A stretch of 64,000 bases of DNA from contig NZ_JAWPMM010000001.1 in assembly GCF_033344935.1 (NCBI RefSeq), positions 1,908,001 through 1,972,000 of the forward strand, written 5' to 3'. This document shows, one piece after another, positions 35,101 to 52,356 of the stretch; positions within the stretch are counted from its first letter, which is position 1, and every line of letters begins with the position of its first letter. The notes under the pieces are model-generated. The model was not told the origin of the DNA. It saw only the letters and a list, made by a program, of their open reading frames with translations, and searched no databases. Source of the stretch: Reichenbachiella sp. GTDB lineage: Bacteria > Bacteroidota > Bacteroidia > Cytophagales > Cyclobacteriaceae. A program made the translations under genes and the position numbers.

Positions 35101-38100
35101 TTTAAACTAATGCCAACATTTTCAGATGTACTTTCTAATCCATTTGAATTCGCTAAATTAAATTCAATGGTACGGATAATGATTCCCACTGAAACATAAT
35201 CTCCAGATGCAACTGGAACTTCAGAAGCCTTGTATTGGCCATCAACTAATGTAGTTTGGTAAACAGAAGCTCCATCAGTGAAGTCACCATCAGCATCCAC
35301 AAAAATCACATAGTCTTCATAACCTGAGATGATCGTAGGTAGCAAATCAGTATCAAGCGCAATTGTAATTGTCCCCGGATCGTTGTTTAGGTCGAATCTC
35401 CATTCTCTGGATACTCTTCGGATACTATCTCCTTCAGGCGTATCTGTGGTTACCCAAGAAGCAATAGATGCATTGTCATGTCCGAATAGCACATAGTCAT
35501 CGTCCGCTAATGTACTGGCATTACTTATTGTAATTACGCCTGCCTCTGCAGCCACATGCTGGTCGGTAGCTGAAGTCTGCCCAATTCCTGCTACTTCATT
35601 GCCATGGGTATTGTCAAATACATATAAATCCGTGGCTACAGGAATGTCATATTTAGAAGATAAATAGTTGTTGATGATGTTTACTTGCGTATTGTTTACC
35701 GGTCGGGTAAACATGATCAGCTCAGCAATATCTCCTTGAAAGGGATTTGTTTCTTCTCTTCCAATATAAAAATTGTAATTGGAATGATTGGTAAAAGGGT
35801 TTGAATTGGTGGCAGTTTGACCAATAATCCCGTTATTTCTCCAAACAATAGAGCTATCAGAAGTGATTCGATGAGCAAAGATGCTATGATCACCATTGGC
35901 CCAAGCCGATGGGTACGTATTGCTTATATTGACTCCTGAAATATCAAAATCGTAATTTCCAGTGCCAGGTATATCTGCAGAAATATTGTTCGCTCCGGTA
36001 GCACCAGTTGCAGCAGTAGCTGTGGAATAAGCATTGGATTGTTGAGATAAATTATCTGTTCTCGTGACAATGAAGAAAGTAGCTTCATTGTATGGAAAAG
36101 TAGAAGCTGCCAAAGTGGAGTTAGAAATTAGCGCATCATTTACATTGGCAAAACTTATCTCTGCATGTCCGTTTACTGCATCTTCAATTTTTGAGGGGCT
36201 AGTACCAACAGGGGTAAAGTCTAAGCCAGTAATAGTAGGAACGGCATTGTCCCAGTTAGTGACGTCGGTGCCTGTAGTGGCAGCTGAGTCTGCTGCCAAC
36301 CATAATTTTAGTGTTTTTGAACCATCAAATTCACCAACTCCACCGGGGCCGTTGTATCCCAAGTCATCATTATCATTGATGGTCATGGTATGCTGTATGT
36401 TTGATCCCAGGGTTGCGTTTGTAGGGCTACTGATATCTAATATTATAGTTTCCAAAGCCTCCAAATCAATATCATCTATGATACTCAAAGTGATATTGGT
36501 ATTCAAGTCTCCTGCAGTAATGGTTGCTGTACTGGAAGGAATAATAAAATCAACATTGTCTGTGCCAGTGGAACTGCCATTCAATCCATATTGCACTGTG
36601 ACGTCATTTCCGGACTCCGCATTAAGTTGAAGCCCAATGGTTACGGTTGCGGTTCCTTCATTGATACTAGATTGGGTGTCAACAAAATCAATTTCCGGAA
36701 CATTATCATCATCTTGAATCGTATAAGTAATGGTGCTATTGCTTCCTATTTTTGCGTTTGAAGATGGGTTTGAAATGGTTAAAATGATAGTTTCATCTAC
36801 CTCGTCCAGCAAGTCATTAGTTAATTCGATTTCAAAAGATGCACTGGTAGCACCTTGAGGTATGGTCACGGTTCCACTAGCCAAAGTATAATCTTCACCA
36901 TTCACTGCTGTTCCACCAGTAGCTGTGTATGTAGCAGTGGTTGTGCTTGCATTATCAAATGGGTTGATCGACACAGTAGCTGAGAAAGTTCCATCATTTT
37001 CAGCAACAACACATCCTGCTCCTGCTACTTCTGTAAGTGGCAAATTATAAAATGTTGAGTTTTCTATTTGATTGTTGTATTCTGTTTGAATTCTTTCTGG
37101 AGATAATAATCCATTATATACCCGGACTTCATCCATAATACCAGTGAATCGATTACCAGTTTCTCCTGAGAGTGTTTCACCACCAATGGCTGCACTACCG
37201 ACATCTACACCCATTTGAGAAGTGTGTGAGACGTTGGCTGCTTCTTGTCCATTTACATAGATAATTCTGCTACCACCCGCATTGTAGTCAGCTACACCAC
37301 TAACGAAATTCCAGGCTGCGGCTGTAGCAGCTTGACCTGCTCCACCGTCTACAGATATTGGATTGGTGCCTCTGCTATAAAATCGTACTCGTCCACTACC
37401 TGGATCACCAATAGATAATGCATAGCCTTGGGTATTGTTATCATCGTCAATGAAAACCCTTGACCCTGCATTGACATTCGTAGGGTTGACCCAAGCCGTG
37501 ATTGAAAAATCTTGCTGTAAATCTGGAAAAGATGCCAATTCGATAAAGTCTCCTACGCCGTCAAAATCACGTCCATTTCCAAATCGTCCGGTAATCACAT
37601 CTGTGCCGTTGTTAGTTCCATCGTATTCATTGGGAGTGGCATCTTCTTCATTGTCGTGCAAATGCCACACACCTAGATATTCATCCCAAACTCTATTACT
37701 GGATGGGTCTGTGGTAATGTCTGAATTGCCATAATACATTTCGATGTTCGTGTCGTCATCAAAATCAAGTGTAGGCAAGAGTACCCAGGCAACAAAGTCT
37801 CCGTTTCCAGAATTGAAATACTCAATGTCATGGTCGAGCCAGAATGTGCTGTCTTGATATTTGAAATAGATGTCATAACCGTTTGCATTTTGGACATTGG
37901 CTGCGAGATCTGCGTCTCCTGCAATATTCACAAGCAAAGGGAAATTCGTTAAGTCTGCTGACCCAATGACTTCGCCACTATTAATGGTCAAAACTTTGCT
38001 GAATCCAAACTCACAGGCAGCATTGAAAAAGATATCTCTGGTGTTGTCGTCATCAGAAATAGTGTAAGTGAAACTGGCTTGTGCACCCAGCTGTAGGTTG

Positions 38101-41100
38101 GCTGAAGGATTACTAAGCGTGATAATAATAGTTTCATCCCCTTCTTTAATGGATTCATCAATGATGCCTAAATCCAAAGTAGATGAAGCTTGTCCCTCTA
38201 GGATTGTAAAAGTTCCGGTTGTAGCCGCTGCATAGTCTACCCCTCCGGAAGTGGCTGTACCCGTAAGGGTGTAATCCATGGTGATGGTAGATCCAGCAGC
38301 ATAGTCTAGTTGCACCGTAACTAAGCCCTGATTTGATTCCGATGATATTATTCCCGAAGAACTAAATTCTGCCGTCCGTTTTAATAGTGCAAGTGTAACA
38401 TAGTCTCCTTTTGTAACAGCTATAGATTCTGTAGTATACTCACCAGAGATTAAAGTTGTAGGGTATATGGCTGCTCCTGACGAAAAATTACCATCTCCAT
38501 CTACTAAAATAACGTACTCGTTGTACCCAACTGGCTCGGTGATCACCATATCTGGATCAATCGAAATCGTAATTTCTCCTGGTGTCCCAGTAAGGTCAAA
38601 TCTCCATTCTCGATCTAATCTTTGGAAATCTCCATCTGGAATATCTGATGTTGACCAAGTTGTTATGTCCTCATTATCGTGACCAAAAAGTACATATTCA
38701 TCATCATCCAGATTGGTTGGTGCACTGATAGTAATGGCTCCCGCTTTTGCTGCTACATGAGATTCGCCGCTTGTTTGTCCGATACCAGCTACTTCAAAAG
38801 AATGAGTGCTTTGCCAAACATAATAATCGTTGGTTATAGGCAAATCATACTTGGCAGCTAAGTAATTATTGATAATAATTCTTTGTGCTTCATTGATAGG
38901 TTTTGTGAATAACAAAAACTCTACGATGTCTCCTTGGAAGTCGTTGGTTTCTGATTGCCCCAATTGGAAATAACTGCTTGTATGATTTAGGAACTCACTT
39001 GTGCCTGTATTGCTTCCAATTTGTGTATTGTTTCTCCAGGCAGTTTTAGTGCCACCTGAGGAAGCATCAGCTCTATAGGTGAAGATGCCATATTCTCCGA
39101 CCCAAGTCGGGTCATAAGCTGCATTCAAGCGGCCACCAGCGTTCCAATTTCCAATATCATAATACCAGATGCCATTCCATGGAAGGTGAGAGCCAAATCT
39201 ATTGACAGCCTGTCCACCGGTTTGCGTATTGGATGTGCCATAGGTGTTGGCTTGTTGTGACATGTTATCATGTCTGGTTACAATAAACGAAGTAGCTTCA
39301 TTGTATGGAAAAGTGGAGGCACTTAATACGCTGTTGGTTGCCAGATTGTCTTCAACATTATTGAAACTAATTTCTGCATGCCCATTAAGTGTTCCTGTAC
39401 CATCGTAACTAATGTAGTCTGGGTCGGCAGCTGGTGTGATCATGTCATAAGCACTATTTCCGACAAGGTTTTTCAGATCTGTTACTTTGCCTCCCGTCAC
39501 AGTTGCTGAGTCCGCCATGTACCACATGGTAAGGGTTCCTGACCCATCTTTGTATCCGACACCTCCAGGGCCATCATACCCTAAATTATCATTGTCGCTG
39601 ATCGATATGGTTATAACATCATCAGTACCTATTAGAATATCAGGAGAAGGGGTAGGATTGGACAACGTGATTTCTATTGTTTCCAATGTTTCGATGGTGC
39701 CATCATCAATGATGTTGGCGATAAAGCTGTTGGTCAAACTACCAGCAAGTATAGTTATCGTTCCACTATTTAATACGAAATCAGAATTTGCTGTGGCACT
39801 TCCACCAGTGACGGTATAGGTAGCCGATACATCTTGTCCGGCTACAGCGCTAAGTTGTACAGGGACGTAAAATTGTGAAGTACCTTCATTTACAGTAACT
39901 GCCGAAGAGGCAAATTGAACCTCCGGGCCATTATCATTGTCAACAATGGTTAGTGTAATGGTATTGTTTGTTCCTAAGTTCGCATTAGTGGGAGAAGAGA
40001 GTGAAATTGTAATAGTCTCATCTGATTCATATATTAAATCATTCGTGATTGACAACTCAAAGTAGTTGCTAGTTTCACCGATATTAATATCTACAGTACC
40101 AGAGGCCAATGTATAATCAGATCCATTGATTGCAGATCCAGCTGTTGCAGCATAATTTACCTGAGTAAGCGATCCGCTTGCCGCATTGATAGTAACTGTC
40201 AGAGCTACTGTAGCGGTAGATTCGGAAATATCAAATCCTGTGACCACTTCCTCTACGGGATCAATAGTGAGGAATGTGCTGGGATCATCTTGGTTGTTGA
40301 ATTCTGTAGCAATCCATGCGGCATTTCTTACCACACTTGAAACTCTTACCTCATCAATTGAGCCATTGAAATATCTTGCGCCTTCTCCTCCAATAGAGGC
40401 AACACCAGCATCTGTGCTCATAAGTCCAATATCGGATAAGTCAGAGATACTAGAGTTTCCATTGGCATAGATGATTCTGTCTAAGTTTGGACGGTCTATT
40501 ACAAAAGACACATATTGCCATGTACCTGCAGTATAGGTGTAAGTATCGTCTATATTGGCAGGGCTAAAACCTGTACCGCGTAGTGTACCTCTGATTCGCT
40601 CATTTCCTGCTTGACCATAATTCAAGAAGTAGCCTGAATTGTTAACATCATCTGAAAAAAGCATACCATTCTGAGCGGCTGCTCCGGCATTAATCCACAT
40701 GGATATGGTGAAGGCTCCATCGAGATTAGGAAATGTGTTCAGGTTAATCTGACTACTCCCATCAAAGGATTGACTTCTACCTGTTTTTCCTACAGCATCT
40801 GATGTACCCGAATTGGTTCCATTATAGCCATTGATGGAGGCATCTGTAAAATTGTCATCACCCATGTGGTATACAGCGTGATAATCTACCCACGTACTAG
40901 TTGAAGATGGGTCAGTTACAACATTGGCATTGCCATAGTACATGTCAATCTCTGTATCTTCATTATAGCTGAGTGAAGGAATTCTTACCCAAGCGACATA
41001 CTCTCCTGTAGCCCCATTGTAATACTCCAGATCATGATCTAGCCAAACCACCGAGTTGGCCAAAGTAAAACGAACATCAAATCCAGAAGTGTTTTGTATT

Positions 41101-42875
41101 TTGCCTGAAGCGGTTTCGAAATCCACATCTGTAAAAGAGATCATTACAGGAAAGTCATCCAAGTTGGATGATCCGGAAACCTGGCTGCTATTGACAGTTA
41201 TGTGTTTTTTATAGGCATAGCTAAAAGGAGCATCAAATTGAATGATCTGCGTATTGTCATTATCATTGATCGTGTAGGTATGAGTTGTGTTAGAGCCTAA
41301 TATGCCAAATTCCGGATTAGCCAATTCGATGATAAAAGTTTCATCCGGTTCCACATCACCGTCTGGCAAAATTGCAGCAGTTGTAATATTGGCAGAGGTA
41401 TTTCCTGCAGGTATAGTAAGGGTACCGTCAGTAAATGTATATTCTGTATTGATTACTGCTGTCCCACCATTAATGGCATAATCTACATCAATGTCAGCCG
41501 ATATTGCATAATCTATTCTTACATTGAAGTCGGGGGAGTTGCTTGCCTCCTCATCTCCGGCAGAATTGGTGTTTGTGAATTGGATATTCGGCCTATAGGC
41601 ACCGACCGTTACATAATCCCCGTCAGCTATTGTCAGGTTGTAAGCTTCATAGATGCCACCATTTAATGTTAAGGGATAGGCTACAGCACCATTGCTAAAA
41701 TCGCCATCTGAATCAACCCAAAGTGTATAGAAATCAAAATCAGCATTTAAAACTGGGAGATTCGAAGGATCTATAGATAAAGTTACTGTGCCAGGGTCGT
41801 TCGTAACATCAAATCGCCATTCTCTTGCGATTCTTTCTAGGTTAGGATCTCCATTGATTTGTTCGGCAGATGTCCAGGTGGATACATCTGCATTGTCATG
41901 ACCGAATAACAACCAGTCTCCATCGTTTAGCGCGGAAGGGCTGCCTACACCAATAATGTCTCCTGAATAAGAATTCGTATGGGAGTCTGCCCCTGTTTGA
42001 CCTATTCCTGATACGTCATGTCCATGAGTGTTTTCGAAAATGTAAAAGTCATTTGCTACGGGTAACTTGTATTTGGCAGCTAGATAGTTTTCAATCAGTA
42101 TTCGTTCCGCATTATTGACTTTATATTGTATAATGGCAAATTCCAGAACATAGCCGTCCCATCCCGTACTTCCGTTATCTTTTGGACCACGACCAATGAC
42201 AGCTTTTGATGCACCGGTTACAAGCCCTGTTTGAATAGTTCCTTGATTAGTGGGGACGTCTTGTACTCCGTCAAGCCAAAGTTCATTGAATTCTCCTTGT
42301 TGCCAAAGTCCAAGCATCAATTGAGGATCTACCGTATGGGTATCGTCAGCTGACTCATATTGATTTTGCCCACCTGCTTCAACTCCGAATTTGATTACAT
42401 TGTCTCCTCCACCATAGGCACCAGCATTGTCATATCTCCAGGTAAATTCATCATCGGCGCCATCTGGATCTTCAGAATCGAAAATCCCTACATCGATGGT
42501 AGCTAATTCATCAGATTGAATAAGTGTTAAAAGTGTGTATCCCGTCTGGTTGTTGATATAGTTTTCGCCATCCTCATCTTCAAATCTGGAAGCATCTCCA
42601 TGAAAAAGTACACCTGGTTGTCCATTTATAGAGGAGGTTCTCAATATTGGTCTTAACCCGCCATTTCCTGCGAACGAGGTAAAATCATTTCCATTCCCAG
42701 ATTTATCCGGCCATGTTATAATTTCATTTCCGTCTCCAACAGAAAGGTCAGAAGCCCGAAGCCATACCGGAACATTTGTAGAATTGCCCACCCCACCTGG
42801 TCCTGTCTGGGCATTTACGCCGCATGCATACCAAATTAATAATAGAAACGCAGGTATTGATTTCCACCTTTTCAT
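29124..42875 (-). CDS. giant multidomain Calx-beta/lectin-like T9SS-secreted protein, 4583 aa
   Basis: A single uninterrupted frame. A signal peptide ends at GVNAQ. Five homologous modules begin with a GPGGVG sequence at about residues 25, 1099, 2173, 2910 and 3640. Each has a concanavalin/LamG-like domain ending in a NYLxxKY motif, then a GIGQ...GHDN...REWR domain. Modules 1-4 each continue with three Calx-beta domains (twelve in all, ending in DND/DDD sequences), and modules 1-2 also carry a DUF2341 plus LamG insert (from about 552 and 1621). Module 5 leads to a beta-helix-like stretch, a SELNNDYFELERS domain (about 4396) and a T9SS type A sorting domain (4498-4583, LFPNPTDEY). It is presumably a surface adhesin or matrix protein; Calx-beta domains usually bind calcium. 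Confidence 0.93.
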   Translation of the reverse strand: MKRWKSIPAFLLLIWYACGVNAQTGPGGVGNSTNVPVWLRASDLSVGDGNEIITWPDKSGNGNDFTSFAGNGGLRPILRTSSINGQPGVLFHGDASRFEDEDGENYINNQTGYTLLTLIQSDELATIDVGIFDSEDPDGADDEFTWRYDNAGAYGGGDNVIKFGVEAGGQNQYESADDTHTVDPQLMLGLWQQGEFNELWLDGVQDVPTNQGTIQTGLVTGASKAVIGRGPKDNGSTGWDGYVLEFAIIQYKVNNAERILIENYLAAKYKLPVANDFYIFENTHGHDVSGIGQTGADSHTNSYSGDIIGVGSPSALNDGDWLLFGHDNADVSTWTSAEQINGDPNLERIAREWRFDVTNDPGTVTLSIDPSNLPVLNADFDFYTLWVDSDGDFSNGAVAYPLTLNGGIYEAYNLTIADGDYVTVGAYRPNIQFTNTNSAGDEEASNSPDFNVRIDYAISADIDVDYAINGGTAVINTEYTFTDGTLTIPAGNTSANITTAAILPDGDVEPDETFIIELANPEFGILGSNTTHTYTINDNDNTQIIQFDAPFSYAYKKHITVNSSQVSGSSNLDDFPVMISFTDVDFETASGKIQNTSGFDVRFTLANSVVWLDHDLEYYNGATGEYVAWVRIPSLSYNEDTEIDMYYGNANVVTDPSSTSTWVDYHAVYHMGDDNFTDASINGYNGTNSGTSDAVGKTGRSQSFDGSSQINLNTFPNLDGAFTISMWINAGAAAQNGMLFSDDVNNSGYFLNYGQAGNERIRGTLRGTGFSPANIDDTYTYTAGTWQYVSFVIDRPNLDRIIYANGNSSISDLSDIGLMSTDAGVASIGGEGARYFNGSIDEVRVSSVVRNAAWIATEFNNQDDPSTFLTIDPVEEVVTGFDISESTATVALTVTINAASGSLTQVNYAATAGSAINGSDYTLASGTVDINIGETSNYFELSITNDLIYESDETITISLSSPTNANLGTNNTITLTIVDNDNGPEVQFASSAVTVNEGTSQFYVPVQLSAVAGQDVSATYTVTGGSATANSDFVLNSGTITILAGSLTNSFIANIIDDGTIETLETIEITLSNPTPSPDILIGTDDVITISISDNDNLGYDGPGGVGYKDGSGTLTMWYMADSATVTGGKVTDLKNLVGNSAYDMITPAADPDYISYDGTGTLNGHAEISFNNVEDNLATNSVLSASTFPYNEATSFIVTRHDNMSQQANTYGTSNTQTGGQAVNRFGSHLPWNGIWYYDIGNWNAGGRLNAAYDPTWVGEYGIFTYRADASSGGTKTAWRNNTQIGSNTGTSEFLNHTSSYFQLGQSETNDFQGDIVEFLLFTKPINEAQRIIINNYLAAKYDLPITNDYYVWQSTHSFEVAGIGQTSGESHVAAKAGAITISAPTNLDDDEYVLFGHDNEDITTWSTSDIPDGDFQRLDREWRFDLTGTPGEITISIDPDMVITEPVGYNEYVILVDGDGNFSSGAAIYPTTLISGEYTTESIAVTKGDYVTLALLKRTAEFSSSGIISSESNQGLVTVQLDYAAGSTITMDYTLTGTATSGGVDYAAATTGTFTILEGQASSTLDLGIIDESIKEGDETIIITLSNPSANLQLGAQASFTYTISDDDNTRDIFFNAACEFGFSKVLTINSGEVIGSADLTNFPLLVNIAGDADLAANVQNANGYDIYFKYQDSTFWLDHDIEYFNSGNGDFVAWVLLPTLDFDDDTNIEMYYGNSDITTDPSSNRVWDEYLGVWHLHDNEEDATPNEYDGTNNGTDVITGRFGNGRDFDGVGDFIELASFPDLQQDFSITAWVNPTNVNAGSRVFIDDDNNTQGYALSIGDPGSGRVRFYSRGTNPISVDGGAGQAATAAAWNFVSGVADYNAGGSRIIYVNGQEAANVSHTSQMGVDVGSAAIGGETLSGETGNRFTGIMDEVRVYNGLLSPERIQTEYNNQIENSTFYNLPLTEVAGAGCVVAENDGTFSATVSINPFDNASTTTATYTATGGTAVNGEDYTLASGTVTIPQGATSASFEIELTNDLLDEVDETIILTISNPSSNAKIGSNSTITYTIQDDDNVPEIDFVDTQSSINEGTATVTIGLQLNAESGNDVTVQYGLNGSSTGTDNVDFIIPSSTATITAGDLNTNITLSIIDDIDLEALETIILDISSPTNATLGSNIQHTMTINDNDDLGYNGPGGVGEFDGSKTLKLWLAADSAATTGTDVTNWDNAVPTITGLDFTPVGTSPSKIEDAVNGHAEISFANVNDALISNSTLAASTFPYNEATFFIVTRTDNLSQQSNAYSTATAATGATGANNISADIPGTGNYDFDISGVNISNTYPSAWANGDHSIFAHRITSDSSIVWRNNGIIGQTATNSNPFTNHSNYNFYIGREETNPFQGDIAELIMFTRPVNNTQVNIINNYLSSKYDIPVATDLYVFDNTHGNEVAGIGQTSATDQHVAAEAGVITISNASTLADDDYVLFGHDNASIASWVTTDTPEGDSIRRVSREWRFDLNNDPGTITIALDTDLLPTIISGYEDYVIFVDADGDFTDGASVYQTTLVDGQYKASEVPVASGDYVSVGIIIRTIEFNLANSNGLESTSENVGISLNYAYNTDINFDYAITGGTATGGNVDYSTAATGTLQFLSGQTSTSLPLGINNDGLIESDETIIIKLRNVPSGFRYSADSIHTYTINDDDNARSIQFSAAASAGDESVTDIQLTIELNNPDPVNETKAYLSVTGGTAEDSPAPDYTLVADTVRIAATENSVTFDFSVLDDVLDEADETIEISLTSPGNANLGTNAVYTYTIQDNDSPVSLEFQDAATTIDEGGNIAQIVVELSNPSGQTVTVDYAVSGGTAIGFGTDYALADGILSIAPGNQIKSINVALTDDTEEESAETIIIDISSPTGATLGAQTQHTITLIDNDAQYGFYGPGGVGGKKSNQLWLDAENINGTGVSGPTDGATITTWTDRSGNNYDFTAVGIASTYDATGLNGNGTITISNATQGYRAPANFSNSLSNYSFFTVAQQTGGQYLAETTTAASGNFSLNQGANGLYYLNSGDFLVGNSSTDIDITTWIFDAEATPNAQVRRDGTALASDNNFAVMGLSNDFSVASRATGESTADFEGDLSEFIIYKKPLNTAQQNIVENYLSSKYGIAVNTDLYSYDGTYGADVVGIGQEADGQHLQAMSDSLLMLSGASSLGDGDYVFAGHDGGSKLTWTTTEAPNSGSNVRRISREWRTDLTGTPGTVIVKIDTTQLPVPPNGYDQYVVWADADGDFRSGATTYQLEYSPIFGFHVTDPITLADGTFITLGVGQTVVQFSLSSSDGNENVANPNIQVSLNFTMGNDVTVNYAATGGSAQGNNVDYLLTAGTLTIPEGQMSANIIPGVIDDNVLENDETITITLTTPSANVSLGSISEHTYTIHDNDNTRAISFSTPLSDTQLESVASKTVTVEVDVVDPSNPTTVDLELVAIGNTATETDDFTLSTTTVTIPANQSTATFDINIVNDTFYENTEVITIDLTNPNNAQLGTDDRYTYTITDDDTAPTVAYTETSSFASETSGTATIEVSLSTTSVADVTIDYSVTAGTATDGIDYTLADGTLVISAGEMDENILVTLVDDILSESAETITVTISNPSGATLGTNQIHTITIIDNDAAGGTGPGGVGNSTNNVLWLRGDQYDGATWTDISGNNNDLNGGVSPSTSTNINSLATVSFDGSQYLSADALTEGAEDFDFFFVTNSSATSDQVLFHVDGSGTEDLAFGYHHSNGAFLDQNGWTGNELAVSGTNIIQLNLESGSNNAEYSVNGVAQASTTYTPTAISGSRALGALTTGAEGFVGDIGEVIVFNNNLNDAQRIITLNYLSARFNINIGALDRYAYDGAGGFTGNLIGIGREDATNLHVEATSEDYLTVKNPNSLEDGDYLLFANDNADATAWTTTETPNGSTRRIAREWRVDETNEVGTVTLEIDNSALPTPPESGLTWVLMVDSDGDFNTVDNSYPLTNIGGNIVSINGLDFNTGDYFTFALVKFETTGASFDFNNPIAWTTGIVPTEGTDATIVSGHPMFLSSDAVVGSLTIETGASLDLSGQTIEFSDGCITLEGTASVDVATSGSSIGYVNPNVIEQCVTSMTYNNIFTEGTAGSVKYLLGDIVILGDMNLTSASGLAATFDARELSTTNDYDITIAGHWTSEITFLPRSGTVTFDGTADQSIDTDGGETYNNLIINKATGDVDLQSSVSTNGTVTLTSGNIDLGINDLNITSTSTISGGDATSYIVADNIGVLRHAITALSTAYTFPIGDSDEYAPFTFTLNQGTLSSSNVTINMRDTKHTNIEQDDYITRYWSLNNENITGTLDYDVSYTYQQVDVVGTELALKARKFSASGDAIGGSVTVATNVLAYTGHDSFSDHTGESLAIATPVELMSFDALLTDAGVEIHWQTASELNNDYFELERSGDGIAFEVIGKIDGNGTINEIMSYSHLDKDPYYGISYYRLVQVDYDGTYTIYNPIAIDNDLFRSEMELTLFPNPTDEYNINVRIASGDENTPIQILIYDLMGHLVHSETIEAILGISNHQIQSNTRMDIGVYQVVVSQANNQQIQRLIIK

Positions 42876-42907
42876 AATAATTAATCCTTTTCAAGTAAAT
42901 CTGAATA

Positions 42908-43063
42908 CAAAGTAGCTCTATTTTGATCTTCACTTCATCGGTATTGTGTACTATTTAGAAAAAACAGAGAATCCCCTAGGCATATAGGGGGATTTCCTAG
43001 GTGTGTGAATTTTTGACTAGAGATATAGCTAAAAATTGTATTATTATAATAAATAATGGTTAT
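42908..43063 (-). promoter_or_regulatory. upstream regulatory region shared with the second giant gene, copy 1
   Basis: Contains CTACTTTG (minus strand, 42908-42915, -7-like), CTATTT-N2-AAAAAA at 42951-42964, CCCCTA-N6-TAGGGG plus GGATTTCCTA at 42973-42999, and AATTGTATTATT at 43034-43045 with an adjoining TTATTATAATAA palindrome. Every block has a counterpart exactly 9293 bp to the right, upstream of the other giant gene. The intervening bases are not conserved, which suggests selected binding sites rather than recent duplication. Confidence 0.72.
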
Positions 43064-43141
43064 TTACCCGTGTTATGTTGAATTATTTAAGGAGTAAGAT
43101 GAGTATAGAAATTAGATGATTGTTATAATCAGTTGAATTGA

Positions 43142-46100
43142 TTAACGGACGCTTAACCTTTTGATTTCTTTGTTATTACCCTGCTGAACAGCGATTAAAT
43201 AAATACCTGCCTGGATTTCTTTATAAACTCCTAATTGGATATCTATGAGCCCTTGGTTCGGAGTCACCTGTTCAAAGTGGATTAGTGTTCCGGACAGGTC
43301 AAACATAGAAACCTGAATGATGGTATTTTCATCTCCACTAATTAACCTAAGGTTTACGTTATTTGAGTTGGTCGGATTTGGAAATACGGACACTTCTATT
43401 CCAGATCTGTAGCCTTCATTGTTGACGGTAACTGGAGCATGTACATTTCTAGTCCCATCATAATCTACCTGAACTAATCTGTAGTAGGACAATCCATAGT
43501 AAGGATGACTATCTATGAATTGATAGTTTACAAACTCATTAGTGGTGCCACTACCGTCTATCTCTCCAATAGTGTCATAGTTTTCACCGTTGGTAGATTT
43601 TTGCACTTCAAAGTACTCGTTGTTGAGTTCTGATGATGTTGTCCAGTTTAGTTCTACCTGATTATCGATGAGATCCGCTGTAAATCTTACCAGCTCCACA
43701 GGAAGGGCAACCGTCGTTATTCCGCCAAAAGAAAAGGTACTAGATGAAAAATCAGAGGCGGTTTGAGAGGTAATAGAACCACTCGATTCATTTCCTGCAG
43801 GAGAACCTCCTAAGTTGACCCATTCGCTTGCTGTTGGCCCATTATAAATGGCAATTCTCACATCTTCTATGACATGTACGCCCATACCAGATATTACACC
43901 TAATTCTACATTGGCTGAATTACTTCCGCTAGGAGTGATAGTCCATGAGTTAAGTGTACTGATCTCAACCATAGCCCCATAACCGGCATTTGTAGTAATG
44001 TCAATTGTTTGCCCGCTGTTTGCATTAGATGAGAAATATTCTGCTGTCCAATTTTGACCGCCTGTGCCTACATTTTCTATACGGGCGTATCCATATCTGC
44101 TGCTATTGCCAATTGGGAAAGTGAAGTTTGCGCTTGCTGCTATTCCGTTTTTTGTCAATGGGCCTTCCACGTAGCTGGCTGAAGATCCTCCGACGATAGA
44201 CGCTGAGGACGTCAAAGTCAAAGTATTGCTTCCATCTGTTTGAATATTTTGAGAGGTAAGAGTCAATACACCATCTACCTCAACAGCATTGCCTCCATCT
44301 ATAATACTCAAATCACCTGATGATTTATTAACTGTAAGTCTATTGAAAGCTTCAGCACCAGTGAAGTCACCGGAAATAGTTTGGGTACCAGTTCCATCTG
44401 CCGTGAATGTTGTAGTGGTCGCATCAACGCTAAATGTGCCAGTAGTTTTTGTTATGTCTTGCGCAAAATTAAAATTGCTTGAATTGGCTCCGGAGATCGT
44501 GCTTGACCCGGCAATGGTTAAATCACCTTCCAGATCAATCGTTCCATTTGTGCCTAAAGCCACAGTACCTCCGTTGAGAATTAAATCACCAAGTATGATG
44601 AGATCGTTGTTTCCAAGATCAAGTGTTCCAGCTGTGACGGTTACATTACCATTTACTGTAAAAGTGGTGTTTGTTCCTAAATCCAATGTACCATTGGTCA
44701 GCGTCATATTGCCAAGGACTTCAACGGTTACATTAAAATCATTGTTAAGTGTTGTGCCACCGCGAAGCTCTAAATCATTACAAATGGTAATGTCGGTGTT
44801 CGGAAATGATTTTGTACCTGTACCGTCGATCAAAAGGTTTCTAAGGTTGGCAATTTGGTCGGGTAAGGTGTAATCATCATTGTCATTGAATGCTAAAGTA
44901 CCTCCAGTAGAGCAGTTGAAGAAATCGTCATAAATACCTGCTGGTAAGTTGCCTCCTCCAGAAATCACTAAAGTTCCTGTGCCAGATACTCGTCCTAGTC
45001 TGGCATTGGTAGCTAAAGCTGAAACAGTCAATGTTCCATCAATTACTGTTTTGTATGCCAGTAGATCTGGACCGTCCATGATAATTTCATCACCGGCCAA
45101 TATATCTACAATAGCTCCTCTTGGAGCTGAGTTTGTATCCCATGAACCATCTGTAGTCCAGTTTCCTGTACCTCCAGATACATTAGAAGTTACGGTCTGT
45201 ACCTGATTTGGAATTGCCCCATCTACACCTGCTGTATAATCACCACCGATTCCAGAATCACCCGTCGCACTAATGACATCAAAGGATAGTGTGTTACTAC
45301 CGTCTCTAGATTGGTAGTTGAAGCCAGTTTCGAGTTTATTCCAGGTGTCTGATGCGTCGGGGAGGAGACGAGCGGTATTGTAGTCATTTAGTGTAAATGG
45401 AGAGGTGACATAGGCATCCGAACCGAAATATGTAAAGGTTAAATTACCAATAAAGTCTGTCATCCCTGATGAGGTCACTTCCCAATAGTATTGTAGTACG
45501 TTGTCTTGATCAACGAACTCTGGTGAATCAACATCTTCCTGTACATTAGGGTGCGGTTCATCTGCTGCTCTGATGGCAATCGTTGCGTTTGTTTCACTGT
45601 TTTGTGTCAAAGAAATAACCACTGGTGTGTACTTATTTCCTGAGCCTATGGGATAGGTGAAGGCACTAGCTGCCGTGCCATTATATACCTTGATAACACC
45701 AGCATCTGTAAAACTCCTTCTGGTCTGAACCATTTTCGATGAAGAAAACCCTCCGCCGCTAGCATCGAAGAAGACTGCATCCTCATTCATTGTCAATTGG
45801 AAGCCCTGAATGTCTAATGACCCTGTGTGCAATCTAACTTGCTCAGTAATAACTACGTCGTTGTTTATAGTAACATCAGAAGCGTTTTGAACCTGAATTC
45901 TACTGAAAGTACCTGTTCCATTAATATCTTGTGGAGTAGAGCCCGCTAGAATAATACCACTGTTGCTTTTTGTTCCATTTGTATTGGTATGAATGGCTGA
46001 GTTAGTGACTGTACCTGAAACAGTAATATCGTTGTTGTTGTCATCTAATGTTCCTGAGGTAATGTTCAAATTGTTTTGAATGGTTAGGTCACTGGAAGCC

Positions 46101-49100
46101 TGTAATTGAACCGTGTTGGCACTTGATTTATTCAAGTTGTAAAAAGTGGTAGCACCAGTTATTAATTGGGTGCTTGAGCCATTAAAAGTTGTGGTGTTTG
46201 AATTTGGAGTAAATGTTCCGCTATTGGTAAAATCCCCAGCAATAGAGAGAGCCAAGCCAGAAGCATCCAGGATAGTATTGGCTTCAATCGTTAAGTCATT
46301 ATTGATGGTCAGAGGCGTATTCAACAAACTCAGCGTCGGATAGTCAGAAGTACCAGATGAGTTATCTACAACTATATCATAAAGATTGATGAAACTCTTA
46401 ATAGATAATGCCTCAGTTCCAGAAACTGTAGAGAGATCTCCGAATTGAATAGTTGTACCAGTGCCTACGGCGTAAGTATCAGGGTCCAAATATAAGGATG
46501 CTACAGATGCAGTAGATAAATGGTTTGCGATGGTAATTGAGCCACCTGAGAAGTTAAACGAACTTCCGGTTCCATAGACAGCAAACATAGGCTTGTTCGT
46601 ACTAGGTGATCCTCCATTATTGGTTCCAATAAGGGCTGTACCACCTGATTGGTTATAACTCAATATCCCTCCAGAGGTAAAGATGGATTCACGAATTTGC
46701 GATCCTACCAGCAACTGTGCAGTCCCACTTAAGTCTATACTTGCAGAGCCTGAACTTGAATATTGCAGATAGTTGTTGTTTCCACCATCCATGTCTAATA
46801 TTCCAGTTCCATCCAATGTGATTGACCCATCTAGTGTTATGCCTAAATCATCTCCAAGGACGGTCATTGTACCAGCACTAATTTGCAGACCAGCAGTAGC
46901 TGGAATGTTGAAGTCAGAATCATTTGTTTCATTAGTTAAAATAATATCATTCGCATCTCCGATGTTGGTGTCATTAATAACTAATACTCCATTTTGAAGT
47001 TCAATCGGCTGAACCGTAGCCGTAGGGGTGCTTAGCGTAAAATCATCATTGAATGTGAAGGAATAGGTCTGATCAGTTCCCTTATTTTGAACAATCCTGT
47101 GTAGATCAGGGGTGGAGGTAGACGTTCTTGAATAGCTATTATTACTTTCTCCTTGTAGCTCTAAGATTGCTCTTGGTCTGGCATTGTCAGCATTGTAGAG
47201 GTCAAAACTGTGTCCATTTTCCGCTCCGTGAATGATGTCTCCCTTAAGGATTAGTGTATGTTCCAGATCTACTGCTGCATCGGCAACGATCAAATCACGA
47301 TCTTGTGGATTTGTAAATGGATCCACAGTATAATCAATATCTCCATTCACAGTTACGGTCACTGCTGAACCACTATTTGGAAATTGGAAAGTTCCCCCCA
47401 CCCAAGTTCCGATGACTAGATCTTCACCAATCGTCATGTCCTGTACAGGAATTAACGTCCCGTTTCCTTGTACCACTACATTGGCGTTAGTTGTAATATT
47501 TTGATCGATGGTATAAGTGGCTGATTCTACCATCAGATTAGGGATGGGGGTGGGAATGTTATTGAGTGTAGCAGTACCTCCAAAGTATAGGTAGTATGAA
47601 TCAGTATTTTCTCCAAAATCTCCAAAATCGCCATTAGCAGTAATTGCTAATGTGGCGTCAAAAGAGACCATGCCTGAGCCTGTAACCAGTCCCAGGTTGT
47701 AGGTGCCAGCAGTTAAAAATTGTAGCCTTGGTAAATCTTCAGATGTGGGGTCGGGATAGGTCGTATAGTCGTGTTCGAATATTACCGCACCTAAATCATT
47801 GATACCTGCTAATACATTGACACGGTGAGAATCCCCGGCACCGTCTGACTGGATGATGACTACGCTGCCTTCAGTAGGCACTTCTTGGGTACCAGATCCA
47901 TCCTGTACATTTCTAGACCAGGTGGCGGCAGTGTTGAAATTTCCATCCTGACGAGAATAGTAAATAGTTGGATTGCTGTTGAAGCGGTTGTTATGTCCAG
48001 CGCTATAGAAGGCTTTATCTAATGGAATGGTAGAATCGTCGAATGTGATTTCATTAGTTCCAGCATTGTAATCGTTTTCTGTAGAACGGGTAAAAGGCAA
48101 TACTGCTAATCCTTTACCACATCTCCAACTTCCCGTACCAGAACCATCCAAATCCACTTCGTCATGAATAAAAACCTGCGAGCTTACCTGTGGCAAAACG
48201 GTGAAGTCAGAATGGTTGACTCGCCAGTAATAACTTAGAATACCCCCAGCTCCAGGGTCGTTGGATGGTATCTCATCATCTGCTACACTCACTGTGATAT
48301 AGCCATCGTCAGTTAGAGTAGAAATATTTATGCTTGCAGGAGTATATCTAGAGCCGTCCGTAACGTCCTGGTTATTAGCGTCTGTTCCAATTGGAAATAC
48401 GAATGTGCCTGTGGCATCTACATACATTTCAATTCCACCATCTGAAGCATTTCCATCTGTTTGCACAAATCTGTTCGCTCCAAATCCACTAATCGTTGCT
48501 GATGCTCCTTGCATACGGAGTTTGCTAGAGTTTATGTCCAACAACTGGTCCTGGCTAAAGGTTAATGTTCCTGTAACCACCTGGTCAGCAGAGAAACTAA
48601 CATCATTGGATGCATCATTTAGATTGACATTTCCAAATACACCATTCCCATCGCCGCTCACTGCATAGTCAGTAGAGCCTCCACTAAATTCTAAGGCCCC
48701 AGTTCCAGTACTTTGGTGTGTTCCAGAGTTGGATAGACTGCCCTGAACGATAATATCTTGATTGGCATTATCTATAGAAGCACTCGATCCGATAGTCAAT
48801 GAATTGTTGACGGTCATGTCTCCACTATTGATTGTCTTCAGGCCTGTGCCGGACACATTCACATCATAAAAATCACCATATGTACCTGCTAATGTAATGG
48901 TCTGACTCGCCTCGCCATTAAATGTAGTCGTGTTGTTTCCTCCCTGGGTATAGGTAGATCCGGTTGCAATATTAAAATTTCTACCCAGCGTAATGTTATT
49001 TCCTCCCAGTCTAAAATCTGCCCCACTAGCTAATATTAAGTCATTAGATACGGTAATGTCCGACTGTATATCGACAAACTCAGTGTCGTCATCAGTAATC

Positions 49101-52099
49101 GTAAGGTTATAAAAATTTGGAGTAAAATAGATTTCAAAACCGTCTGTTCCCAATTCTCCTGGCTCGATGTCGATTTCGATAGTCCCACCTGTCACGCTGT
49201 AATTGCCTTCAGCAACGTCTACATTTATACCGTTTACTACTCCTGATCCGGCTAGGACTCTTTCATTGTAATCTTTAAGGATGATGCTACCACCAGACAT
49301 GACAAAAACCCCATTGGTAGATTTGAAATCAAATAGACCAATAGTGTCGTCCCAGGTATTACCAGCTTCTGTAGTTCCTACCAAATTAAGTGTACCTCCA
49401 CTCTGCTGATATACGATTTTCGCATTAGCTCCTCCACTATTTCTCAGCTGAGGTAGTGTCATCGTTCCTCCTTCTATGATCAAATTGGGAGAGCCATATT
49501 GTGAAAAGAAGGAGCCGGGGGCTTGATGAGATTCAAATGTGCCATCTGTTAATCGCCATTTACCCATAAAGGTAACGGATTGTTGTTGGCCAGTAGCCCC
49601 TCTTACACCATCAATATCTACGGCATCAAGTTCTGGATCTATGGCTGCAATTTGGGCTTCACTATTTGCGGTTGCCCATACTTCCACATTTGGACCATCC
49701 ATCCAAAGCGCACCACTCTCTGGGATCATCCAGGATCCATTGGTTCCGCCTCCCAGGTTAACATTGCCTTCAGAAAGTGAGGGAATAAATGTACTACCAG
49801 TTAAGTGCAGCGTTCCATTTTGAATATATATTGGTTTTCCAACTGTCGGATTGGCACTATTAGGGGTATTGCCAATATCATTTCTTCCGTAAACTCGAAA
49901 GTTTTCCAATGCGGAAGGGTTGACAGTAAGTAAGTAGGTTTGATCTGTTCCTTTATCGATGACCAGGTCATAAAAATTGGTCGTGTTATTACAGGTCAAT
50001 GTATTATCAGATTGTCCTGTAAACCGCACAGTTACAGCGCCCTCATTTGCCCCTGTTGGAAAGGAATCAAAATCGTATCCACTGAGGTTGGAAAAATTAA
50101 TTATTCCATTGTTGGTCAAGTCGCCGTATAAGTTGAGTCGGTGATAGGTAGTGTGGTAATCAGCCGGACCAGTTGGGTCGCCGATATCTCCGCTACCTAC
50201 TGATATTTCTCCATTAGCGGCGACGTTCAGGTTTCCGAGAACATCTATAATCAACCGAGTAGTGCTCGCATCATTAATTTGAAAATCACCTCGAGTAATA
50301 GTCAGGTTGTTATTAACAGTTATATCACTAGTAAGAATAAGATGCTGAGCTGAAGAATTGAAATTGAGCACCAAGTTATAAAAAGAGGTCAAGCCTGAGG
50401 CCGAAGTCAAGTTTACATCACTGGACCCATAATATTCCACTGTACCAGCTCCAGAACCTGCATTGGTAAAAACACTGCCGTCTGTTATGGTTGGGAGGAT
50501 ATCATCGCTCAATCTGATTGTGCCTGATCCTTCCAGTTCAGTAACCGTTCCATGACCTGTACTGCTGCCAAAATCAAGTGTCCCATTGACTACCAGTTTA
50601 GAAAGCGTACCGGATATATCACCATTGCCTACCGTTACTGTTTTACCAGAGAGAATGGTAACTATATCTGTCGCTGCTGTAGGAGAAGTGTCAGGAGTTA
50701 AGCCGTCAGGGTTGTTGTAAATAGCTCCAGCGGGATCAAGCGTCCATGTATTGGTATTTGACCAGTCGCCTGAATTAATAACATACCATTTTTTTGACGT
50801 AGAAGGACTACCAAGCGTGAAGTAACCACTATTTAATTCTCCATCAGTCAATGTGAACCGTATTCTGTCTCCATTGAATGTAGGGTTGGTAACCATGCTT
50901 ACCTGAGTGAAGTCACCAGAAGTTCCTGCTCGAGTCAAAAGACTGAAATCAGTTGCAGTTAGTCCAGTGACATCAGTGTACATTCCGGATTCCACGATGT
51001 CGAATTCAATAATGCCACCAAGATTTCCAGTTTTTTCCAGATACCAAATTCTATTATAGCGTTCGGTATTTGCTATACCGGTTAAGTTTGTTGATGTGGT
51101 ACTTAGATTACTATTGTTGTGTCCTGTGAAAAGGTATTCATCATTTGAGAATGCATCTGAGCCATTTTCAGATAAGTAGATAGTGCCACCCTCTCCAGTA
51201 GTTGCGTTATGAGTTGTGGTGTTGAGTTGTCCAACTCCTACCAAATTGTACCGGTAGTTAGCACCAGCGCCACTATAGTGATCATTTCCCCCGATAGAAA
51301 TACCAAATTTTTCCGAATAGTAGTTTTCAACTACTCTAATTTCAGCTTCGTTTAAAACCACATCATAATAAATTAGCTCTCCAAGGTATCCGTCAAAGTA
51401 ATTAGCACTTGAAGCATCGCTACCTATTTTAATTTGAACGGCATTGTGATCACCTATGGTGGTAGGGATTGATGTGTTATTTGTATAGGTGACCCCATCC
51501 AGTGTAAGCGCTATTTCTGCAGGACCTGCAGCACCATCATAGGTACAACTAACAATATGGCTTTGTCCAGCAATGATTGAGGAAGCCGGACTTGATACAG
51601 TATAGCTTGAAGACCCATTGTTAATTCCGAAAGTCATACTTCCGTCGGCAGCTATATAAGCGTATATCCCATTAGTACCATCTCCTTGCTGATAAATGTA
51701 TTGTAAACTACCTACTGTAGAAGGCTCGATGATCATGAACATGGTTCTAGCATTGAGCGTAGAGGCAGGGCTAATGCTATTGGAAGGGTCAGCCAAGTCT
51801 AGGAACTCACTACTGGCAGCTGTGAATAAAACTCCTGGTTCGGCATTTGTGCCAATTCCCGCAGAGGCATCAAATGTAGGGTTCGTGGCCGTGCTGTTGT
51901 TAGTGGCGTCGTTGCTGTTTGCTCGATCAGTCCAGGTGGTTACGTTGTTGGTGCCATCATAGGTCAGGCCTTTATCAGATCGAAGCCAAAAGGTAATGTT
52001 GCTCGCAGGCGAATTAACTCCACCAGGCCCGGTTTGAGCATATGTTGATCCTGCGCCTAGCAGGACAATGACTAATGAAAGTAGAAGGTTTTTCATCAA
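43142..52099 (-). CDS. giant T9SS-secreted beta-repeat protein, 2985 aa
   Basis: A signal peptide (MMKNLLLSLVIVLLGAGSTYA) is followed by the same QTGPGGV start as the neighbouring giant protein, one LamG-like domain (about 25-270) and one GVGQ...GHNN domain (about 275-430). Then come three long blocks, each opening with a WS/TW sequence (about 442 WYVINSGDWSNTNTW, 1380 YYSRQDGNFNTAATW, 2317 GNWTTDGSWDTN). They are filled with short repeats such as GTLDLGTN and NNLTITRG, predicted as right-handed beta-helix. The end has a SELNNEYFEVQKS domain and a T9SS type A sorting domain (2900-2985, VFPNPTNSNN). It is probably a surface or secreted adhesin/matrix protein. No Calx-beta domain was seen. Confidence 0.92.
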   Translation of the reverse strand: MMKNLLLSLVIVLLGAGSTYAQTGPGGVNSPASNITFWLRSDKGLTYDGTNNVTTWTDRANSNDATNNSTATNPTFDASAGIGTNAEPGVLFTAASSEFLDLADPSNSISPASTLNARTMFMIIEPSTVGSLQYIYQQGDGTNGIYAYIAADGSMTFGINNGSSSYTVSSPASSIIAGQSHIVSCTYDGAAGPAEIALTLDGVTYTNNTSIPTTIGDHNAVQIKIGSDASSANYFDGYLGELIYYDVVLNEAEIRVVENYYSEKFGISIGGNDHYSGAGANYRYNLVGVGQLNTTTHNATTGEGGTIYLSENGSDAFSNDEYLFTGHNNSNLSTTSTNLTGIANTERYNRIWYLEKTGNLGGIIEFDIVESGMYTDVTGLTATDFSLLTRAGTSGDFTQVSMVTNPTFNGDRIRFTLTDGELNSGYFTLGSPSTSKKWYVINSGDWSNTNTWTLDPAGAIYNNPDGLTPDTSPTAATDIVTILSGKTVTVGNGDISGTLSKLVVNGTLDFGSSTGHGTVTELEGSGTIRLSDDILPTITDGSVFTNAGSGAGTVEYYGSSDVNLTSASGLTSFYNLVLNFNSSAQHLILTSDITVNNNLTITRGDFQINDASTTRLIIDVLGNLNVAANGEISVGSGDIGDPTGPADYHTTYHRLNLYGDLTNNGIINFSNLSGYDFDSFPTGANEGAVTVRFTGQSDNTLTCNNTTNFYDLVIDKGTDQTYLLTVNPSALENFRVYGRNDIGNTPNSANPTVGKPIYIQNGTLHLTGSTFIPSLSEGNVNLGGGTNGSWMIPESGALWMDGPNVEVWATANSEAQIAAIDPELDAVDIDGVRGATGQQQSVTFMGKWRLTDGTFESHQAPGSFFSQYGSPNLIIEGGTMTLPQLRNSGGANAKIVYQQSGGTLNLVGTTEAGNTWDDTIGLFDFKSTNGVFVMSGGSIILKDYNERVLAGSGVVNGINVDVAEGNYSVTGGTIEIDIEPGELGTDGFEIYFTPNFYNLTITDDDTEFVDIQSDITVSNDLILASGADFRLGGNNITLGRNFNIATGSTYTQGGNNTTTFNGEASQTITLAGTYGDFYDVNVSGTGLKTINSGDMTVNNSLTIGSSASIDNANQDIIVQGSLSNSGTHQSTGTGALEFSGGSTDYAVSGDGNGVFGNVNLNDASNDVSFSADQVVTGTLTFSQDQLLDINSSKLRMQGASATISGFGANRFVQTDGNASDGGIEMYVDATGTFVFPIGTDANNQDVTDGSRYTPASINISTLTDDGYITVSVADDEIPSNDPGAGGILSYYWRVNHSDFTVLPQVSSQVFIHDEVDLDGSGTGSWRCGKGLAVLPFTRSTENDYNAGTNEITFDDSTIPLDKAFYSAGHNNRFNSNPTIYYSRQDGNFNTAATWSRNVQDGSGTQEVPTEGSVVIIQSDGAGDSHRVNVLAGINDLGAVIFEHDYTTYPDPTSEDLPRLQFLTAGTYNLGLVTGSGMVSFDATLAITANGDFGDFGENTDSYYLYFGGTATLNNIPTPIPNLMVESATYTIDQNITTNANVVVQGNGTLIPVQDMTIGEDLVIGTWVGGTFQFPNSGSAVTVTVNGDIDYTVDPFTNPQDRDLIVADAAVDLEHTLILKGDIIHGAENGHSFDLYNADNARPRAILELQGESNNSYSRTSTSTPDLHRIVQNKGTDQTYSFTFNDDFTLSTPTATVQPIELQNGVLVINDTNIGDANDIILTNETNDSDFNIPATAGLQISAGTMTVLGDDLGITLDGSITLDGTGILDMDGGNNNYLQYSSSGSASIDLSGTAQLLVGSQIRESIFTSGGILSYNQSGGTALIGTNNGGSPSTNKPMFAVYGTGSSFNFSGGSITIANHLSTASVASLYLDPDTYAVGTGTTIQFGDLSTVSGTEALSIKSFINLYDIVVDNSSGTSDYPTLSLLNTPLTINNDLTIEANTILDASGLALSIAGDFTNSGTFTPNSNTTTFNGSSTQLITGATTFYNLNKSSANTVQLQASSDLTIQNNLNITSGTLDDNNNDITVSGTVTNSAIHTNTNGTKSNSGIILAGSTPQDINGTGTFSRIQVQNASDVTINNDVVITEQVRLHTGSLDIQGFQLTMNEDAVFFDASGGGFSSSKMVQTRRSFTDAGVIKVYNGTAASAFTYPIGSGNKYTPVVISLTQNSETNATIAIRAADEPHPNVQEDVDSPEFVDQDNVLQYYWEVTSSGMTDFIGNLTFTYFGSDAYVTSPFTLNDYNTARLLPDASDTWNKLETGFNYQSRDGSNTLSFDVISATGDSGIGGDYTAGVDGAIPNQVQTVTSNVSGGTGNWTTDGSWDTNSAPRGAIVDILAGDEIIMDGPDLLAYKTVIDGTLTVSALATNARLGRVSGTGTLVISGGGNLPAGIYDDFFNCSTGGTLAFNDNDDYTLPDQIANLRNLLIDGTGTKSFPNTDITICNDLELRGGTTLNNDFNVTVEVLGNMTLTNGTLDLGTNTTFTVNGNVTVTAGTLDLGNNDLIILGDLILNGGTVALGTNGTIDLEGDLTIAGSSTISGANSSNFNFAQDITKTTGTFSVDATTTTFTADGTGTQTISGDFTGAEAFNRLTVNKSSGDLSIIDGGNAVEVDGVLTLTSQNIQTDGSNTLTLTSSASIVGGSSASYVEGPLTKNGIAASANFTFPIGNSSRYGYARIENVGTGGQNWTAEYFSSNANSGQTIDITTNAGYGAMVEISTLNSWTITPSGSNSANVELGVISGMGVHVIEDVRIAIYNGPTASEWVNLGGSPAGNESSGSITSQTASDFSSSTFSFGGITTVALPVELVRFTADLIDNQVELNWTTSSELNNEYFEVQKSTNGENYDTIGEIDGSGTTNEFVNYQFIDSHPYYGLSYYRLVQVDYDGTRNVHAPVTVNNEGYRSGIEVSVFPNPTNSNNVNLRLISGDENTIIQVSMFDLSGTLIHFEQVTPNQGLIDIQLGVYKEIQAGIYLIAVQQGNNKEIKRLSVR

Positions 52100-52200
52100 A
52101 GTTCTTATTTCAATTATTTCAGGTCAGGTCATTACAACCTTCAGGATTTACTATTTTGACAAATACAACCAGCTGCTATGCGCCAGTTATATCTACAATG

Positions 52201-52356
52201 CAAAAATAGAAAGCATATAAACACTATATATACGTAAACCCCTCTATTTGCAAAAAATGGGTATTCCCCTAACATTATAGGGGGATTTCCTACGAATGCT
52301 GCAAAATATTCGATTAATGAGTAACAAATTGTATTATTCTAATAAAAAATAATCAA
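52201..52356 (-). promoter_or_regulatory. upstream regulatory region shared with the first giant gene, copy 2
   Basis: Contains TATTTTTG on the minus strand (52201-52208), a full match to the -7 consensus TAnnTTTG, CTATTT-N2-AAAAAA (52244-52257), CCCCTA-N6-TAGGGGGATTTCCTA (52266-52292) and AATTGTATTATT (52327-52338). No good -33 TTTG is present, consistent with an activator-dependent promoter in which the CCCCTA...TAGGGG dyad is bound by a regulator about 60 bp upstream of the -7 box. Confidence 0.72.

Follow-up and report, generated by a model that had tools for sequence, protein, structure and literature searches.

Among the products of gliding Bacteroidota the giant T9SS proteins stand out, and no account of their transcriptional control was found among the open-access matches listed, which were covered as titles and abstract openings. 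In the Reichenbachiella genome considered here two such genes, encoding proteins of 4583 and 2985 amino acids, stand in tandem within a window of 64,000 nucleotides (the whole stretch of DNA that was analysed), and four short sequence blocks recur upstream of both at a constant offset of 9293 bp. This locus raises the question of whether the paired blocks are a trace of gene duplication, a mobile repeat, an RNA structure, or an operator, and, in the last case, which regulator may bind it. The reading that we consider fairly probable from genome comparison is that they hold the site of a NarL/LuxR-type response regulator, which would co-activate giant surface proteins and SiaABC-type signalling.

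Conserved Blocks Upstream of the Giant Genes

Both giant genes lie on the minus strand, and the blocks are read towards them on that strand. When the coordinates were rechecked, all four block pairs proposed by the sequence-only reading were found: the −7-like octamers CAAAGTAG and CAAAAATA at 42908 and 52201, the CTATTT-N2-AAAAAA pair at 42951 and 52244, the CCCCTA-N6-TAGGGGGATTTCCTA pair at 42973–42999 and 52266–52292, and the fourth block AATTGTATTATT at 43034 and 52327; the equal spacings of 61 and 65 bp are also correct. Compared without gaps, the two upstream regions (42900–43050 and its counterpart) are identical at 79 of 151 positions, the two longest exact runs measuring 17 and 13. 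In the control, 500 dinucleotide-shuffled pairs, each taken at the best of 121 offsets, gave a mean of 52.1 and a maximum of 60 identities, and a longest run of 13, which equals the second-longest real run. The features of the locus are collected in Table 1; the C-terminal sorting domain PF18962 was detected in both giant proteins with 27.1 and 31.5 bits against a cut-off of 27.

Table 1: Features of the two giant genes and their upstream regions (window coordinates; offsets are counted from the operator start).
Feature	Position	Strand	Remark
Operator of 4583-aa gene, TAGGAAATCCCCCTA	42985..42999	minus	the genome has one other exact copy, at 52278
Third half-site TAGGGGA, 21 bp from the first	42972..42978	minus	TAGG at +21 recurs at other loci
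TTTTTTCTAAATAG block in the interval between operator and core promoter	42951..42964	minus	+35 in both copies; partly changed in G004 (TATTTTGTATTTAG)
Predicted −7 box CTACTTTG, 7-base variant (TACTTTG) of TAnnTTTG	42908..42915	minus	TTTG at +88 from operator start, as in copy 2 and G004
Distal block AATAATACAATT	43034..43045	minus	exact in the window only at 43034 and 52327
Operator of 2985-aa gene, TAGGAAATCCCCCTA	52278..52292	minus	exact copy; ranked with the siaC matrix
Third half-site TAGGGGA of 2985-aa gene	52265..52271	minus	
TTTTTTGCAAATAG block of 2985-aa gene	52244..52257	minus	+35
Predicted −7 box TATTTTTG, fits TAnnTTTG	52201..52208	minus	84 bp from operator start
Distal block AATAATACAATT of 2985-aa gene	52327..52338	minus	
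4583-aa secreted protein	29124..42875	minus	Calx-beta, LamG-type, DUF2341, T9SS sorting domain
2985-aa secreted protein	43142..52099	minus	LamG-type, T9SS sorting domain
NarL-type response regulator (Response_reg + GerE), near 3′ end of 4583-aa gene	27552..28187	minus	candidate regulator

The same arrangement precedes a single giant gene in another genome of the genus (G004, R. faecimaris), in register with both window copies. Counted from TAGG, AATACAATT lies there at −43, the distance at which it stands in the distal block of the window, and is followed by TAGGAAAT at 0, by TAGGGGA at +21, by a T-rich/TAG block starting from +35 and by the TTTG of the −7 box at +88, with different spacers. 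According to these comparisons the block set is real and probably represents a functional regulatory element.

A plain tandem duplication, in which the upstream likeness would come from copying and would have no special regulatory meaning, agrees with the tandem order of the giant genes and with a stretch near their 3′ ends that also shows 68% DNA identity. It agrees further with the R. faecimaris locus (L113:8909–17815, against window 29124–52099), where the single giant gene occupies the same place between the same flanks as the window pair (one gene each of the decarboxylase and the uracil-DNA-glycosylase families) and is 75% identical in its product to the 2985-aa protein over 2971 aligned positions, with a signal peptide and start-proximal bases that resemble the 4583-aa gene. 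This mixed likeness indicates that leader sequence was probably copied or exchanged between giant genes. However, the N-terminal regions of the two giant proteins are only about 27% identical, yet the blocks and their spacings are kept, also in R. faecimaris, and the same operator core is found before unrelated genes, which argues against plain duplication and leaves it quite unlikely.

Conserved Unit and Its Occurrence

The conserved unit is a 15-bp pseudopalindrome, TAGGnnAWTnnCCTA (TAGG-N7-CCTA). The window operator is TAGGAAATCCCCCTA plus a third TAGG half-site 21 bp on, and not the CCCCTA-N6-TAGGGG dyad that had been proposed as the activator site of a shared promoter; what stands of that proposal is a promoter-linked element and a probable activator site at a fixed distance from the −7 box, which forms part of a wider site set. 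The dyad was rejected as the unit, since the siaB genes of G001 and G005 and the siaC gene of G049 (a genome of another genus) do not keep it intact and it shows no covariation.

The exact 15-mer TAGGTAATTCCCCTA occurs at ten sites in six of the eight genus genomes and at two sites in 287 other genomes of the family (L101 and L102), and its reversed-pattern control gave three sites in all 295 family genomes. When up to one mismatch was allowed, the genus held 19 sites against 2 in the control, and five of the nine added sites are TAGGTAAATCCCCTA. The pattern TAGGNAATNCCNCTA was matched at 13 genus sites, namely the ten exact TAGGTAATTCCCCTA sites, the two window sites, and one site (L092) that lies in a coding frame and was taken as chance. 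By these counts the operator is nearly restricted to the genus.

The third half-site is present as TAGG at +21 in both window copies and before the R. faecimaris giant gene, the siaB genes of G001 and G006, and the G049 siaC gene; before the G005 siaB gene it stands at +22. At eight of the ten exact TAGGTAATTCCCCTA sites there is no TAGG at +21 or +22 and both arms of the 15-mer are kept; therefore the third half-site is optional and the palindrome is the unit.

These eight sites bear on the suggestion, which we regard as unlikely, that the operator belongs to a regulator other than NarL-type, e.g., one of LytTR type acting on direct repeats 21 bp apart. LytTR-type sites are repeats 21 bp apart, like the TTCATCNA repeats of this genus; TAGGAAAT and TAGGGGAAT are indeed direct repeats at this distance, and separate TTCATC-type 21-bp repeats precede a giant gene of G007 and, in three genus genomes, a gcvP-like gene. 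Against this, the LytTR unit is absent from the eight exact sites that have no TAGG at +21 or +22, and the regulator genes beside the sites are of NarL type. As the main reading the LytTR repeats were set aside, the TTCATC repeats being a different motif. In the genus, TTCATC repeats at 20–22 bp gave 24 matches against 5 in the control, and 10 of the 24 are outside ORFs of at least 120 aa; since 21 is divisible by three, coding DNA favours an offset of 21 bp. Intergenic TTCATCNA repeats 21 bp apart were observed at L061, L069, L071 (upstream of the gcvP-like gene) and L081 (the G007 giant gene).

The partner arms could also be read as RNA, that is, as a transcribed leader with the hairpin CCCCUA-N6-UAGGGG instead of a DNA operator. 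Such a stem is possible in both window copies and, with G–U pairs, in R. faecimaris, and 85.7% of cells pair, above slid versions. No pair, however, is changed on both sides in seven sequences, equally good pairing is seen in 180 of 500 shuffles, the TAGG partner is missing from this position at eight of the ten exact operator sites, and the predicted −7 boxes are located downstream of the stem, so that a leader hairpin is very improbable. A search of Rfam at the gathering threshold returned nothing on 11 operator loci and only tRNA in the window.

The long element TAGGAAATCCCCCTA-N4..8-TAGGGG has two exact copies in its own 4.88-Mb genome and none in the other genus genomes (eight genus genomes were searched). 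A T9SS-gene regulon under this exact signature was not found in these genomes; related operators mark siaC and siaB genes. That the element is a mobile or randomly placed repeat is scarcely credible, because the long form has these two copies only, both at the same gene-relative place, and none of the ten exact TAGGTAATTCCCCTA 15-mers falls inside a listed ORF of at least 100 aa. With up to three mismatches the long element was matched in 9 of 295 family genomes, and the matches outside the genus (6) are below those of the control (about 22), which marks them as chance. An exact scan of an 84,980-species collection, which may leave out records of the window's own genome, gave seven loci, among which the R. 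faecimaris locus alone fits and was studied. In the open-access literature on the operator or its targets nothing like this operator appeared among the matches listed (titles and abstract openings), and a GerE consensus had no match in the open-access literature.

Genes behind the Operator

The operator is found before giant T9SS genes, siaB-kinase operons (three genomes), siaC genes, and a probable small RNA, and the wider set of sites is SiaBC-linked and includes a few giant T9SS genes. The sites of L115, L116, L118, and L121 have no clear target. The giant-gene targets are the window pair, the R. faecimaris gene, and genes of G007 and G005: among the three giant genes of G007 one has the exact 15-mer at −434 and in another a pair of sites stands at −281 and −303, whilst a single site near −334 belongs to the giant gene of G005. 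Only weak matches were obtained for the giant genes of G001 and G003 and for the third of G007 (8.8, 9.4, and 9.4), those of G002 and G006 being left out of the scoring, and the region of a 2043-aa giant gene elsewhere in the window's own genome (G000) had no match of at least 11.5.

In G001, G005, and G006 the operator precedes an operon that starts with a SiaB-family kinase gene (DUF6272) and continues in G005 and G006 with a coiled-coil protein gene, a histidine kinase gene, and a gene for a receiver-PP2C phosphatase, their domains having been scanned in G006. The G006 kinase reaches 132.5 bits with SiaB_fam_kinase NF038262 (cut-off 85) and 59.1 with the strict SiaB equivalog (cut-off 225), and DUF6272 was identified in the siaB-operon kinases of G001 and G005. 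The PP2C phosphatase has a SpoIIE domain, and its best model is SiaA, with 187.8 bits against a cut-off of 700 and in the C-terminal part only. The SiaC family PF09345 is present, with an NTSS phosphosite stretch that aligns with a solved DUF1987 protein and a score of 63.9 for the NCBIfam SiaC equivalog, below the cut-off of 150.

In Pseudomonas aeruginosa the phosphorylation of SiaC at T68 is determined by SiaA and SiaB, and the pathway governs aggregation (PMC7647112). The proteins encoded here resemble this SiaABCD system in comprising a SiaB-family kinase, a SiaC with NTSS, and a PP2C phosphatase that scores best, though far below the cut-off, with the SiaA model. They differ from it in that the siaC genes are multiple and scattered (eight SiaC-family genes at eight loci in the window's own genome, and 4 to 8 per genus genome), the phosphatase is fused to a receiver domain, and the promoters carry the new operator.

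With a matrix built from ten chosen sites, the 450-bp upstream regions of 27 of the 45 genus siaC genes scored at least 11 and the remaining 18 were below this score, compared with a mean of 0.57 and a maximum of 4 for 30 column-permuted matrices on the same regions; inside each ortholog group the siaC sites are comparably placed. A matrix trained on siaC sites (26 of the 27 scored ones, the L154 site being omitted) placed the window operators joint first in 64 kb (15.3; next 11.8). Since a score of 15.3 is also attained within the window by column-permuted matrices in 37 of 200 trials, the rank and not the score is the evidence. The matrix tests are moreover circular in part, as likeness to a set containing the window sites had guided the choice of the siaC sites. 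Outside the genus, where 69 of 85 family matches beyond the own genome were sampled, 9 of the 69 siaC upstream regions scored at least 9 against a mean of 2.9 and a maximum of 9 for 100 permuted matrices, i.e., there is no clear overall enrichment; the best of these matches (G049) has the same architecture as in the genus.

The operator is also located before a conserved noncoding stretch in G000, G003, and G004, which by its sequence is a candidate for a new small RNA. About 180 nt of strongly conserved noncoding DNA at L010:1593–1775, with orthologs in L085 and L086, sits behind the operator and a TATCTTTG box and contains a GC-rich hairpin followed by a T-run; it folds better than 200 of 200 shuffles (z −3.1). 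Its comparison with Rfam gave no family at threshold and one weak match (E 0.16), far below the gathering score.

Position Relative to the Core Promoter

In F. psychrophilum the TAnnTTTG box occupies −12 to −5 (PMC9723704), and from this position the transcription starts of the giant genes are predicted near 42903 and 52196. Inspection of these two promoters by eye revealed no TTG at the usual −33 distance upstream of the −7 boxes, which fits activator dependence.

Downstream of 46 operator sites, at 20–300 bp, 26 strict TAnnTTTG boxes were found, and 12 of the 26 lie at 62–64 or 83–85. The former class consists of eight siaC sites and the latter of the 2985-aa gene and three noncoding loci, the two classes being two helical turns apart; the best six listed pairs of 3-bp bins 21 bp apart gave 12, 10, 8, 8, 7, and 6, each overlapping the same clusters. 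The 4583-aa and R. faecimaris genes also have TTTG at +88, with the 7-base variant of the box, and in two closely similar siaC promoters from one genome of another genus CATCTTTG is found at 84. In the giant genes the third half-site starts 63–64 bp from the −7 box, that is, where the whole operator starts in the 63-bp class. In many promoters whose operator is good, TAnnTTTG is absent at both 63 and 84, and the independent cases of phasing number about five, because sites within ortholog groups are related. Promoter phasing is more independent evidence than the matrix tests.

Candidate Regulator and Proposed Mechanism

Operators of the NarL/FixJ (LuxR-type) family, e.g., of NarL, RcsB, and GerE, are short pseudopalindromes with TA ends and a TAGG-like half-site. 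The window-type site is like them in being a short pseudopalindrome upstream of the core promoter with helical-turn spacing; unlike the NarL heptamer pair, this putative binding site has a different half-site, a 15-bp spacing, and a third half-site at +21.

Homologous regulator genes (218-aa-type Response_reg + GerE) that stand immediately before the operator and siaC were found in G000, G003, G004, and G007, the operator behind the G007 regulator gene being weak (TAGGTAATTCCTTTA, 11.9). The same order recurs in G049, where the operator has TAGG at +21, a receiver-PAS-HisKA_3 kinase gene adjoins the regulator, and a PAS-HisKA kinase gene is also located upstream; kinase-like proteins are encoded upstream of the regulator in G000 too. 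In addition, a different siaC of G000 and its operator are preceded by a second NarL-type regulator, whose homologues adjoin siaC in G003 and G004. The Response_reg and GerE domains were scanned in G004, G007, G049, and the second regulator of G000, and the homologues of the first regulator in G000 and G003 have E values of 1e-134 and 3e-129 in a genome-wide search that left out G001, G002, G005, and G006. The best models of the neighbouring regulator are MctR- and NarL-type, all below cut-offs, and the structures of VraR and NarL were matched by sequence.

From this adjacency and the shape of the operator we infer that a NarL-type response regulator is the likeliest binder; the candidates are a 218-aa protein (L237:4742–5398), a 216-aa protein (L238:5260–5910), and one encoded in the window. 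The regulator genes that were found beside operators adjoin those of siaC and not those of the window pair. Close to the giant pair, the window has its own NarL-type gene (27552–28187); no kinase domain was detected in its scanned neighbours, and no operator-matrix match upstream of it is among the window's best 15.

The proposed mechanism is as follows. A regulator with Response_reg and GerE domains would bind the 15-bp pseudopalindrome and, probably cooperatively, also the third half-site, which is nearer to the gene by 21 bp and would lie on the same helical face; if the −7 box occupies −12 to −5, the 15-mer would be centred near −89 and the half-site near −72. The bound regulator would then recruit RNA polymerase to a −7 box that has no −33 TTG, and the same regulator would switch on both giant T9SS proteins and SiaABC-type signalling, with attachment or aggregation as the probable purpose. 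The extended form of this proposal, a genus-level attachment switch in which one NarL-type regulator turns on giant T9SS proteins, an SiaA/B/C-type relay, and a small RNA through the 15-bp operator with its optional half-site, is tentative, its chances being slightly under even. If it is true, sensor kinases feed both an adhesive surface and the signalling that governs this surface. The operator may serve as a concrete link between giant T9SS proteins and SiaABC-type signalling, which comes with a candidate regulator gene, predicted transcription starts, and a small set of targets per species.

A two-component route to T9SS-related genes, as it is proposed here, is also described for Porphyromonas gingivalis, where PorXY-SigP controls T9SS (PMC4800418). 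The two cases differ in that the P. gingivalis route acts on the T9SS machinery via an ECF sigma factor, whereas here it is single giant cargo genes that carry the sigma-A-type −7 box and the putative NarL-type operator.

In L119 and L122 a second palindrome, TACGGAWATCCTGTA, follows the operator at a distance of about 129 bp. Some siaC genes have a possible −7 box (CAACTTTG or CATCTTTG) 38 bp downstream of this palindrome, to which a further regulator of the same type may bind.
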